A DNA stretch of 64,000 bases from Homoserinimonas sedimenticola (GTDB lineage Bacteria; Actinomycetota; Actinomycetes; Actinomycetales; Microbacteriaceae). The DNA lies in NCBI RefSeq assembly GCF_026094475.1, contig NZ_JAPELL010000001.1, positions 931,932-995,931 on the forward strand, in the 5' to 3' direction. The notes under the pieces are model-generated. The model had not been told where the DNA came from and ran no database searches. It worked only from the letters and a program-made list of their open reading frames with translations. This document shows, one piece after another, positions 13,916-21,543 of the stretch (position 1 is the stretch's first letter; every line of letters begins with the position of its first letter). A program made the translations under genes and the position numbers.

Positions 13916-14899
13916 TTAGCGGCCGAGGCGGCGCTGCTCCTCCAGGTCGGAGTCGACCATCATCTGCACGAGCTCGCGGAAGTCGACCCGTGGCTTCCAG
14001 CCGAGCGTCTCGCGCGCCTTGCTCGGGTCGCCCACGAGCAGGTCGACCTCGGCGGGGCGCATGAAGCGCGGGTCCTGCGTCACGTGGCGCTCCCAGTCGT
14101 CGATGCCGACATGGGTGAAGGCGACGTCAAGCAGCTCGCGGATGGTCTGCGTCTCCCCCGTCGCGATGACGTAGTCGTCGGCCTTCTCCTGCTGCAGCAT
14201 GAGCCACATCGCCTCGACATAGTCGCCCGCGAAACCCCAGTCGCGGCTCGCCTCGAGATTGCCGAGCGCGACCGTGTCCTGCAGCCCGAGCTTGATGCGG
14301 GCGACCGCCTGCGTCACCTTGCGGGTCACGAATTCAGGGCCGCGGCGCGGCGACTCGTGGTTGAAGAGGATGCCCGAGGAGGCATGCAGGCCGTAGGACT
14401 CGCGGTAGTTGATGGTCATGTAGTGCGCGAAGACCTTCGCGACGCCATAGGGTGAGCGCGGCCACAGGAGCGTCGACTCGCGCTGCGGCACCTCCTGCAC
14501 CTTGCCGAACATCTCGGAGCTCGAGGCCTGGTAGAAGCGGACCTTGGACACGTCGTCGCCCGCGTAGAGCCGAGTCGCCTCGAGCATGTTGAAGGCACCC
14601 TTGCCCGTGACATCCGTCGTCATGGAGGCGTTCTCCCACGAGTACGCGACGAAGGAGATGGCCCCCAGGTTGTAGACCTCGTCGGGCTGTGCGGTCTCGA
14701 GCGCCCGCATGAGGCTCGGCAGGTCGGTGAGGTCGCCGAAGATGAGCTTCACGTCGGGCAGGATGCGCCGGACCGTCTCGAGCTTGGGGTTGTTCTGCCC
14801 GCGCACGAGGCCGTAGACCTCGTAACCCTTCGACAGCAGCAGCTCACCCAGATAGAGGCCGTCCTGGCCCGTGATTCCTGTGATGAGTGCGCGCTTCAT
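13916..14899 (-). CDS. gmd: GDP-mannose 4,6-dehydratase
   Basis: A 327-residue short-chain dehydrogenase/reductase that converts GDP-D-mannose to GDP-4-keto-6-deoxy-D-mannose. [21 protein letters not shown] is the Gmd-type nucleotide-binding start. SSSEMFGKV and [11 protein letters not shown] supply the catalytic Ser/Thr-Glu and Tyr-Lys pairs. The conserved [20 protein letters not shown] follows. The ATG is preceded by GGAGGAA. The product is the substrate of the ColD-like enzyme at 19421-20602. Confidence 0.95.
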
Positions 14900-14980
14900 C
14901 GGTGTGTTCCTCCAAGGGATCGAGGCATGAGAGGCCAGACGGGTCGCCTAACTCTACACGCGCGCCCCCGCCGCATGCCG

Positions 14981-14986
14981 TACCCT
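14981..14986 (+). promoter_or_regulatory. -10 element TACCCT of the second ligase-like gene
   Basis: TACCCT ends 9 nt before the ATG at 14996. The spacing is a little long for a leaderless start, and no ribosome binding site is visible in between. Confidence 0.35.
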
Positions 14987-14995
14987 GAAGGCCCC

Positions 14996-19399: not shown

Positions 19400-19420
19400 T
19401 GTGAGCTTGCTACACCCGTC

Positions 19421-20602
19421 TCAGCTGAGCGAGGCGAGCGTGTCGTAGACGAGGTCGATGCCGCTCTCCACGGGGTAGTGGTGGTTGCCGACGAAGAGGC
19501 CGTCGACGTGCACCTTGTCGGCCGCGGGAAGCTCCTCGGGCACGATGGCGTCGAGGTATTGCATGACGGGGTTGCGGGCGAAGTTGCCGGCGACGATCGG
19601 CCGGGCCTCGACCCCCGCCGCTTCGAGCGTGCGGGCGACCTCGGCGCGGCGCCCCGCGAGGGCTCCCTCGAGCACGAGGGAGAAGCCGAACCAACTGCTC
19701 TCTCCCGTCTCGCGCTGCAGGCGCACGGTCTCGAGCCCGGCGAACTTCTCGACGAAGTAGGCGGCGTTGCGCCGACGCCCCTCGACGAGCGAGGGAATCT
19801 TGGCGAGCTGCTCAATGCCGATCGCCCCCGACATCTCGAGGGGGCGCACGTTGTAGCCGGGCAGCACGAAGCGGAAGAGGTCGTCGAAGCGGTCGCCCGT
19901 CTTGTCGTGCACGAAGTTCTTCTCGGGGAGCTCGCGCGTCCAGCCGTGGGCGCGCAGCGACAGCAACTCCTGGTAGAGCTGCTCGTCGTCGGTGAGGATG
20001 ACGCCGCCCTCCATGGTGGAGATGTGGTGCGAGAAGAAGGCGCTGAAGGTGCCCATGAGCCCGGCCGTGCCGGCCCAGGTTCCCGCGTCGCGCGCGCCCA
20101 GTGACTCGCAGTTGTCTTCGAGGAGCACGAGACCGTGCTTCTCGGCGAGCGCCGTGAGCTTCGTGAAGTCGTTGGGGTTGCCGAGGAGGTTGACGGCGAA
20201 GATCGCCTTGGTGCGCTCCGTGACGGCCTGCTCGGCGAGCTCCAGGTCCATGTTGAGCGTGTCGAGGTCGATGTCGACGAACCGCGGGATGAGGCCGTAC
20301 TGCTGCAGCGGGTAGTAGGTGGTCGCCCACGATACGGCGGGCACGAGCACCTCATCCCCCCGGTTGAGGTCGATGCGGGGGTCGATCACGGCGGCCGCGA
20401 TGGCGAGGAGGTTGGCGCTGCTGCCCGAGTTGACCATGACGCCGTAGCCGGCGCCGAAGTGCGCCGCGAACTCCGACTCGAACTGCTTCACGAGGGGCCC
20501 CATCGTGAAGCGGCCGCTCTCGACGACGCGCTGAATGGCGGTGTATTCGGCCTCGTCCCAGCTCGAGGTCGCGAGCGGGAATCCCTGGGGTGCGTCGGTC
20601 AT
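19421..20602 (-). CDS. colD: ColD-like GDP-4-keto-6-deoxymannose 3-dehydratase
   Basis: 393 residues with the DegT/aminotransferase fold. The PLP lysine is replaced: SHHISTMEGG has His192-His193 where aminotransferases have Lys followed by x-I/L-T/S. That histidine is the hallmark of ColD and RfbH 3-dehydratases. Only one cysteine is seen in the central region (EDNCESLGA) and there is no [2Fe-2S] cysteine cluster, which argues for ColD (PLP plus glutamate) over RfbH. It would remove the C3 hydroxyl of GDP-4-keto-6-deoxy-D-mannose, the Gmd product. The ATG overlaps the colC-like stop by 4 bp. No other Gmd-consuming enzyme is seen apart from this pair. Confidence 0.85.
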   Translation of the reverse strand: MTDAPQGFPLATSSWDEAEYTAIQRVVESGRFTMGPLVKQFESEFAAHFGAGYGVMVNSGSSANLLAIAAAVIDPRIDLNRGDEVLVPAVSWATTYYPLQQYGLIPRFVDIDLDTLNMDLELAEQAVTERTKAIFAVNLLGNPNDFTKLTALAEKHGLVLLEDNCESLGARDAGTWAGTAGLMGTFSAFFSHHISTMEGGVILTDDEQLYQELLSLRAHGWTRELPEKNFVHDKTGDRFDDLFRFVLPGYNVRPLEMSGAIGIEQLAKIPSLVEGRRRNAAYFVEKFAGLETVRLQRETGESSWFGFSLVLEGALAGRRAEVARTLEAAGVEARPIVAGNFARNPVMQYLDAIVPEELPAADKVHVDGLFVGNHHYPVESGIDLVYDTLASLS

Positions 20603-21543
20603 GTGGCGGTTCCTTGATCGGGGGGTGTCGCGGCCAGGTAGGCCGCATAGCTCGCGGCGTAGCCGTCGTCGAGGGTCGTGCTGGGGTCCCAGCCGAGGGC
20701 GCGGGCGCGACTGGAGTCGAGCAGCCGCTGCATGACGCCGGACGGCTTCGTGGTGTCGTATTCGAACTCCCCGCCGAAGCCGACGGCCCTGGCCGCCGCT
20801 TCATAGTAGTCGCGGATGCTGTGGTCGACTCCGACGCCGAGGTTCAGCATCGCGGGCCACGCCTCGAGGGCGCCGACCTGGGAGATCAGCCAGGCCGCGA
20901 GGTCCGGGGCGTAGGTGAATTCGCGCCGGGCTGTGCCATCTCCCCACACCGAGACGGTGTCGTCACCTGCACGCACAGCGGCGTGCGCCTTTGCGATGGT
21001 CGAGGCGACGAGGTGGGCACGCCCGGGGCGGAAGTCGTCGCCGGGGCCGTAGAGGTTGCTGGGGACTGCTGCGCGGTAGGCCCATCCGTATTGGCGGCTC
21101 GTGTACTCGCAGAGCTTGGTGCCCGTGATCTTGGCGAGCGCGTAGCCCTCGTTGGCCCCCTCGAGCGGCCCGGCCAGCAGCCGCTCCTCGACGATGGGCT
21201 GCTCCACCTCGGCGGGATAGATGGCGCCGCTCGAGATGTAGAGGAACTCGGGCACCTCGGCCGCGATCGCCGCCGAGATGACACTGCTGTCGAGCTGGAT
21301 GTTCTCCTGCAGGAAGCTCGCGGGGCGCTCGAGCTTCTCGGTGATCCCCGCGACACGGGCGGCCGCGTGGATGATCGAGTCGGGGCGGATGCTCGCAATC
21401 GCCTCGGCCGTCGCAGCCGCGTCCCGCAGGTCCACCTCGGCGCGAGTCAGGGCGACGAGCTCGTCGCCGGGCCGGATGGTGTCCCACTGCTGCACGATGC
21501 TCGATCCGAGCATCCCGGCGGCGCCGGTGACGACGACTCTCAT
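20599..21543 (-). CDS. ColC/Fcl-like GDP-keto-sugar epimerase-reductase
   Basis: 314 residues, SDR fold, closest in motifs to GDP-fucose synthase/ColC: VTGAAGMLGSSIV, HAAARVAGITEK, ENIQLDSSVI, NEGYALAKITGTKLCEY (Tyr134, Lys138) and NLYGPGDDFRPGRAHLV. It should take the ColD product and reduce C4, with or without C5 epimerisation, giving GDP-L-colitose or a related GDP-3,6-dideoxyhexose. The Fcl epimerisation Cys (in SSCIYP) is Ala107 here (SSGAIYP), while the partner His is kept in GRAHLV. The stereochemistry of the product is therefore open. It is coupled to colD by an ATGA overlap. Confidence 0.82.
   Translation of the reverse strand: MRVVVTGAAGMLGSSIVQQWDTIRPGDELVALTRAEVDLRDAAATAEAIASIRPDSIIHAAARVAGITEKLERPASFLQENIQLDSSVISAAIAAEVPEFLYISSGAIYPAEVEQPIVEERLLAGPLEGANEGYALAKITGTKLCEYTSRQYGWAYRAAVPSNLYGPGDDFRPGRAHLVASTIAKAHAAVRAGDDTVSVWGDGTARREFTYAPDLAAWLISQVGALEAWPAMLNLGVGVDHSIRDYYEAAARAVGFGGEFEYDTTKPSGVMQRLLDSSRARALGWDPSTTLDDGYAASYAAYLAATPPDQGTAT

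Follow-up and report, generated by a model that had tools for sequence, protein, structure and literature searches.

A predicted GDP-3,6-dideoxyhexose locus of Homoserinimonas sedimenticola with a cysteine-less ColC-like putative reductase, a candidate route to GDP-tyvelose

The GDP-L-colitose pathway of Escherichia coli O55 and Yersinia runs over the enzymes Gmd, ColD, and ColC, and members of the same three families are encoded in the stretch of DNA analyzed here, a 64,000-nucleotide window of the Homoserinimonas sedimenticola genome (contig NZ_JAPELL010000001.1, positions 931,932 to 995,931; genome size 2.84 Mb, completeness 99.99%). Papers are cited by their PubMed Central (PMC) numbers. 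ColD has no iron-sulfur cluster, uses a histidine as both acid and base, and releases a 4-keto dideoxy sugar together with ammonia (PMC8987622). In human GDP-fucose synthase, both epimerizations depend on Cys116 as the base and on His186 as the acid (PMC12362431). The Cys-less Campylobacter enzymes DdahC (Thr/His) and MlghC (Tyr/Arg) reduce GDP-4-keto-6-deoxymannose without prior epimerization (PMC7949155), and the C4-reductases of Campylobacter serotypes HS:53 and HS:3 convert un-epimerized GDP-3,6-dideoxy-4-keto-heptose to D-arabino and D-lyxo products (PMC10440746).

On balance, from sequence comparison and by analogy with these enzymes, we lean toward the reading that Gmd, ColD, and the ColC-like protein of the window make a GDP-3,6-dideoxyhexose that would be reduced at C4 without epimerization at C5, giving a D-sugar, most likely GDP-tyvelose, and not GDP-L-colitose. 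Gmd would convert GDP-mannose to GDP-4-keto-6-deoxymannose, ColD would remove the C3 hydroxyl by pyridoxamine phosphate (PMP) chemistry with His192 as acid/base, and the ColC-like protein, which has no Cys to act as the base at C5, would catalyze only the reduction of C4, using NADPH and Ser105-Tyr134-Lys138. The analogy with the D-arabino and D-lyxo heptoses suggests either tyvelose or its D-lyxo epimer as the D-configured product; GDP-3,6-dideoxy-D-arabino-hexose (GDP-tyvelose) is favored by our own reasoning, because the Cys-to-Ser variant of GDP-fucose synthase gives an altro sugar with C4 configured as in L-fucose. The glycosyltransferases of the locus would then transfer the sugar into a surface polysaccharide, presumably the wall glycan. 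Sequence comparison and a predicted fold support the enzyme identities, the Cys-less class with its linked residues, the two losses of the Cys, and the gene neighborhood; the reactions, their stereochemistry, and the glycan are what we infer.

All three genes were found where a first-pass annotation, made from the nucleotide sequence alone, had placed them, and the family matches of the three proteins support the GDP-3,6-dideoxyhexose pathway that it had proposed. Along the minus strand, colC comes first, followed by colD, a GT2 glycosyltransferase gene, galE, and gmd (coordinates in Table 1), and the reading frames of colC and colD share 4 bases. A plus-strand GT4 glycosyltransferase gene is convergent with colD and ends 21 bases from the colD end, and a plus-strand GT2 gene (start 21660) is divergent from colC, 116 bases past the colC start. 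Gmd scored above the curated cut-off of the NCBIfam gmd equivalog (425.5 versus 415 bits), and its top PDB match was the GDP-mannose 4,6-dehydratase 1rpn (E = 3.3e-117; heptose enzyme 7us5, 4.2e-30), which identifies it as a member of this family. A search of the genome yielded one strong and one weak match (27% identity) for gmd and, likewise, one strong and one weak match (34% identity) for the ColC-like gene, the two weak matches being an adjoining pair of short-chain dehydrogenase/reductase (SDR) genes.

The ColD-like protein matched E. coli ColD 2gms best in the PDB (residues 7-387, 465 bits, E = 1.7e-138), far above other DegT enzymes (174 bits for the CDP E1, 130 bits for perosamine synthase), and it is 55% identical to ColD of E. 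coli O55 across 385 residues. By alignment of PDB ColD variants in which the catalytic His is exchanged for Asn or Lys, the position of the pyridoxal phosphate (PLP) lysine was assigned to His192, the first His of a Ser-His-His motif that is present in the aligned ColD of all 80 loci collected below. Cys165 is the only cysteine, and therefore no four-Cys iron-sulfur site exists, so that both sequence features named in the first-pass annotation, His-His where a PLP Lys would stand and the lack of iron-sulfur Cys, hold. The score against RfbH (CDP-4-keto-6-deoxyglucose 3-dehydratase E1) was 257.1 bits, below the 423-bit cut-off, and the single Cys likewise speaks against this family. With its full-length ColD match, the His at the PLP-lysine position, and no iron-sulfur Cys set, we assign the protein to ColD.

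The ColC-like protein had E. coli GDP-L-fucose synthase (GFS) as its top PDB matches. Relative to this enzyme, Cys109 is replaced by Ala107, and Ser105, Tyr134, Lys138, and His177 are conserved. An AlphaFold2 (AF2) model (predicted local distance difference test, pLDDT, 95.9) gave 1gfs as the best fold match (template modeling score, TM, 0.92). The ColC encoded in the O-antigen region of E. coli O55:H7, a strain with colitose, retains the Cys; the loss is therefore not general to ColC, and we rejected the idea that authentic ColC generally lacks it. The loss of the Fcl epimerization Cys, already noted in the first-pass annotation, was thus seen against both enzymes. As in ColC, the protein is a GFS-type SDR with the Ser-Tyr-Lys reductase residues, and its gene overlaps colD. 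The Cys/His dyad, however, is broken by Ala107, though His177 is present, and we therefore do not class the protein as a colitose synthase. It scored 288.8 bits against the 500-bit cut-off of NCBIfam GDPFucSynFcl, and is thus outside Fcl as well. With the dyad Cys replaced and the reductase residues intact, its sequence is that expected of a C4-reductase of the DdahC/MlghC kind.

With a threshold of E up to 1e-100, colD was found in 21 of 299 genomes sampled from the Microbacteriaceae, in 7 of 297 from the order, and in 3 of 396 from the phylum, each count including the genome of the window. The 29 colD loci from these samples, window included, carried a readable colC homologue in 28 cases, 16 of them without the Cys, 11 with the Cys, and 1 truncated; the remaining locus (L004) lies at a contig end. 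The first-pass annotation had described ColD-like enzymes as known from Gram-negative O-antigens and a dideoxyhexose pathway in an actinobacterium as notable in itself. The count of 21 family genomes does not support the latter. In addition, according to a survey of 12,939 genomes, L-colitose is lacking in the TACK archaea (PMC7725333), which implies a predicted presence in other phyla; as far as the accessible part of this survey goes, the pathway in actinobacteria has already been predicted in silico and is not new.

For a broader comparison, a species-genome collection was scanned with a ColD alignment, and the best 80 of at least 583 relatives were taken; adding the window and E. coli O55 brought the comparison to 82 ColC rows. 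As these 80 loci are the best matches to a mainly actinobacterial query, the class proportions are not representative of nature. Alignment at the Cys position, the check that the first-pass annotation had suggested, gave Cys in 49 rows, Ala or Val in 22, Thr in 10, and one truncated row (L067). The Ala/Val rows are the window and 21 named loci, all labeled actinobacterial; Agromyces cerinus (L042), Plantibacter flavus, and Glaciibacter superstes belong to the Cys-less class, and Cryobacterium suzukii has the Cys. Nine of the Thr rows are labeled euryarchaeota or Poseidoniales and one is from a metagenome-assembled genome labeled Rhodobiaceae; another Poseidoniales locus (L073) has the Cys. The colC homologue lies upstream of colD in the Thr-class loci (L076, L077, L079, L081, L082, L090, L092, L099, L100, and L103), and no gmd match was present in the stretches examined around any of these ten.

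The replacement of the Cys is accompanied by other exchanges. All 49 Cys rows share Asn70, Thr130, Met270, and Lys273. In the actinobacterial Cys-less class, Lys70 and Arg273 are invariant (22 of 22 rows), position 130 being Ala in 21 and Pro in 1, and position 270 Val in 17, Thr in 3, and Met in 2. The Thr rows have Ser (7) or Asn (3) at position 70 together with Pro130, Arg270, and Arg273. Tyr134, Lys138, and His177 are found in 82 of 82 rows, and position 105 holds Ser in 79 rows and Thr in 2, with a gap in the last one. By these alignments, Cys-less ColC is a conserved class that spans genera and has a linked residue set. This conservation and linkage favors a D-sugar without proving it, and it supports the doubt between colitose and a D-configured 3,6-dideoxyhexose that the first-pass annotation had raised.

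In a ColC tree of 79 rows, computed by a quick method without bootstrap after removal of columns 70, 105-109, 130, and 273 and without L067 (truncated) and the near-copies L040 and L070, the actinobacterial Cys-less rows and the Thr rows were each split off by one branch among the Cys rows, with Shimodaira–Hasegawa approximate likelihood ratio test (SH-aLRT) values of 98 and 100, respectively. On this tree, the Cys was lost twice. Between the window and a locus of the same genus (L117), dN/dS was 0.104/1.094 for colC and 0.072/0.672 for colD, rough values from a simple Nei-Gojobori script with synonymous sites near saturation. The low values speak for constraint, and with the conserved catalytic residues they led us to reject the idea of a decayed gene.

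The gene neighborhood was compared in the family sample, whose genomes are related and not independent, so that no probability is attached to the counts. The GT4 gene is present in 19 of 21 colD genomes and in 10 of 278 without colD, and the former divide into 16 of 16 genomes with Cys-less colC and 3 of the 5 other colD genomes (four with the Cys and G421, with the truncated colC). Within 8 kb of colD, GT4 was found in 17 of the 21 named Cys-less actinobacterial loci versus 1 of 48 Cys loci; in the genomes G481 and G525, its distance to colD is about 9 kb and thus exceeds this flank. As the whole-genome counts tie GT4 to colD generally, we rejected it as a marker of the Cys-less class. The GT2 gene at 21660 is present in 16 of 16 Cys-less colC genomes, in 1 of the 5 others, and also in 47 of 278 without colD, and we claim neither GT4 nor this GT2 as a transferase dedicated to the predicted sugar.

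What is known of the fucose synthase Cys variants bears on the proposed D-sugar in both directions. Human C116S epimerizes about 70% of its product at C3 only, the remaining 30% or so being GDP-L-fucose (PMC12362431), and halting mostly before the C5 epimerization counts for a D-sugar, as does the presence of a single RmlC in the genome, located away from colC. Several points weigh against it. The residual 30% of GDP-L-fucose is one of them, and human C116A was below detection, at about 0.01% of wild type (PMC12362431), so that the loss of the Cys alone gives no working reductase and other changes must make the reductase work. DdahC favors the epimerized substrate (PMC7949155). His177, the epimerization acid, is kept in every ColC row, Lys70, invariant in the actinobacterial Cys-less class, could be a new base, and 3 of the 10 Thr rows retain Asn70. 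The occurrence of GT4 with colD genomes of both classes would fit a shared product equally well, and one RmlC does exist, though beside a nucleotidyltransferase gene. Finally, the ColD tree does not unite the partners of the actinobacterial Cys-less ColC. It needs 3 changes for this class, 1 of them forced by starred branches, and therefore colC and colD may have been reshuffled.

Another reading is that the product is GDP-L-colitose after all, with the ColC-like enzyme epimerizing C5 by means of Lys70 or another group as the base and His177 as the acid, and we regard this as unlikely, yet as the strongest of the alternatives. ColC requires just one epimerization, at C5, His177 and Lys70 are invariant where they would be needed, the serine variant of the human enzyme retains some GDP-L-fucose formation, and GT4 relatives accompany colD of both classes. 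On the other hand, the loss of the Cys in the Thr class was not accompanied by a Lys at position 70, and a Cys put into DdahC restored no epimerization (PMC7949155), so the dyad needs precise placing. By residue offset, Lys70 would also not lie at the place of the Cys. On GDP binding, residues 74-82 of human GDP-fucose synthase turn helical and Asn79, a mobile residue, joins the sugar pocket, and residues 138-140 shift, with Asn140 then pointing to the sugar (PMC12362431). Window positions 105, 107, 134, 138, and 177 correspond to human 114, 116, 143, 147, and 186, and by this offset of 9, not by alignment with the human chain, position 70 would be Asn79 and position 130 residue 139. The helix predicted at residues 67-72 of the AF2 model is consistent with position 70 lying in the Asn79 region, which would make Lys70 a mobile sugar-pocket residue.

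It is improbable that the ColC-like protein is a reductase only and that C5 is first inverted by another enzyme, for instance the RmlC of the rhamnose genes, to give an L-sugar. Campylobacter makes its 3,6-dideoxy-L-heptoses by a separate epimerase, and serotype HS:5 has, besides a ColD-like dehydratase, a C5-epimerase distinct from its C4-reductase (PMC10440746). The one RmlC of the present genome, however, adjoins a nucleotidyltransferase gene, as expected for a rhamnose pathway, and within 8 kb of colD an RmlC relative was found in 1 of the 21 named Cys-less actinobacterial loci, compared with 8 of 48 loci with the Cys, for which reasons we rejected a dedicated cupin epimerase near colC. 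That ColD is an aminotransferase or acts on a heptose or another nucleotide sugar is very improbable, since, although it shares the DegT/DnrJ superfamily with perosamine synthases and a Campylobacter ColD-like enzyme works on GDP-heptose (PMC10440746), the His at the PLP-lysine position and the bit scores led us to reject an aminotransferase, and the match of gmd to mannose, not heptose, dehydratases a heptose substrate.

Upstream of colC, and no more than 75 bases from it, lies the end of a gmd frame in every named Cys-less actinobacterial locus (21 of 21), but not in the window. The same-genus locus L118 has two gmd genes, one upstream (55% identical to that of the window) and one downstream (85%), whereas in L117 and in the window the downstream copy is the only one, and gmd is single in the window's genome; the displaced gmd therefore looks like a replacement inside the genus. 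In the same-genus genome G526, searches found no colD at 1e-100 and no colC at 1e-65. Its locus L141 (4923-10046) is the same glycan locus as 13916-22580 of the window, with GT4 followed directly by GT2 and colC-colD absent; it contains two tandem gmd-like genes, 80% and 51% identical to that of the window. By this comparison, the colC-colD pair thus behaves like a cassette within a stable locus. In the window, gmd is flanked by two Wzy_C (O-antigen ligase) type membrane proteins (12478-13878 and 14927-16273, both on the plus strand), and relatives of both flank gmd in L117 and L118, too.

Other features of the window were noted in passing. A protein of 421 residues (27045-28310, minus strand) matched no Pfam or NCBIfam family and has relatives within 8 kb of colD in 11 of the 21 named Cys-less actinobacterial loci and in 0 of 48 Cys loci. 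Next to it, a sugar-nucleotide SDR below every NCBIfam cut-off (28319-29482, minus strand) has relatives near colD in 10 of 21 and 1 of 48 loci, respectively. A second polysaccharide locus (33383-53061) contains Wzz, a PSyn2 dehydratase, two DegT aminotransferases, a sugar transferase, a flippase, and UDP-sugar dehydrogenases; its G+C content is 60-65% compared with about 65-73% leftward, as if it had been acquired separately. A DUF5648-domain protein (60014-61678, minus strand) adjoins the rml-type genes.

Table 1. Genes of the glycan locus and rmlC, with positions in the window
Feature	Position	Strand	Basis or context
gmd, GDP-mannose 4,6-dehydratase (P0001)	13916..14899	-	NCBIfam gmd, PDB 1rpn
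colD, PMP-dependent GDP-4-keto-6-deoxymannose 3-dehydratase (P0002), predicted catalytic His192	19421..20602	-	ColD 2gms, E. coli O55 ColD
colC-like, putative GDP-4-keto-sugar reductase, Cys-less class (P0003)	20599..21543	-	Lys70, Ala107, Ala130, Arg273; Ser105/Tyr134/Lys138/His177 present
GT4 glycosyltransferase	18302..19399	+	convergent with colD; genome counts
GT2 glycosyltransferase	21660..22580	+	divergent from colC; genome counts
GT2 glycosyltransferase, same locus	17260..18261	-	Pfam Glycos_transf_2; equivalent place in L117, L118, L141
galE, UDP-glucose 4-epimerase	16277..17263	-	NCBIfam galE, 334.4 versus cut-off 262.3 bits
polyprenyl-phosphate glycosyltransferase-like GT2	22611..23351	+	followed by DUF2304 (23348-23716) and DUF2142 (23655-25196) genes
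rmlC	62697..63308	-	sole PF00908 epimerase found in the genome; adjoins nucleotidyltransferase gene, not colC

Among the papers listed by a literature search, with most subscription journals (wall-sugar chemotaxonomy) outside its reach, none described a GDP-tyvelose route or a class of ColC without the Cys, and none linked tyvelose with Microbacteriaceae or with Agromyces. Tyvelose may have been named among the wall sugars of Agromyces cerinus, which we do not use as evidence. To our knowledge, tyvelose is otherwise known only as a CDP derivative. An annotation from gmd, colD, and a colC homologue would call L-colitose, and if the Cys-less class makes a D-sugar, this call would be wrong for a Gram-positive group across several genera, with residues 70, 107, 130, and 273 telling both ColC classes apart. 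A second, GDP-linked route, separate from the CDP route, would then lead to tyvelose or its D-lyxo epimer, its enzymes could supply the means of making such D-sugars, and a bifunctional epimerase/reductase would have become a plain reductase in nature twice over. The accessible part of a paper on Agromyces aureus names no tyvelose (PMC5217419). As a tentative extension, toward which we do not quite lean, Microbacteriaceae, Cellulomonas, and some Arthrobacter might make GDP-tyvelose by a GDP-mannose route ending in a non-epimerizing ColC derivative, and marine Poseidoniales-type archaea might have arrived at a similar enzyme independently.

Among known systems, the colitose locus of E. coli O55 has the same colC-colD order and the same 4-base overlap as the window, with ColD 55% and ColC 38% identical. 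Unlike in the colitose pathway, ColC of the window has no epimerization Cys and has Lys70 and Arg273, its gmd has moved to the other side of the colC-colD pair, and the host is Gram-positive. The nearest solved structures to the ColC-like protein, by sequence and fold, are those of GDP-L-fucose synthase (GFS/Fcl/GMER), whose base Cys109 it is missing. Campylobacter DdahC and MlghC, with Thr or Tyr for the Cys, show the same GDP-fucose-synthase fold without Cys, and the GFS-type C4-reductases of this genus are among the fold matches of the ColC-like AF2 model. They reduce C4 without epimerization, including that of 3,6-dideoxy-4-keto sugars in vitro; they differ in belonging to heptose pathways, in which, for several serotypes, separate cupin epimerases precede the reductase. 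The CDP-tyvelose/abequose pathway (E1/RfbH, E3, RfbS, TyvE) also makes 3,6-dideoxyhexoses, and its E1 is distantly related to ColD, but it is CDP-linked and uses an iron-sulfur E1 with the reductase E3 (PMC8987622), whereas ColD of the window has one Cys.

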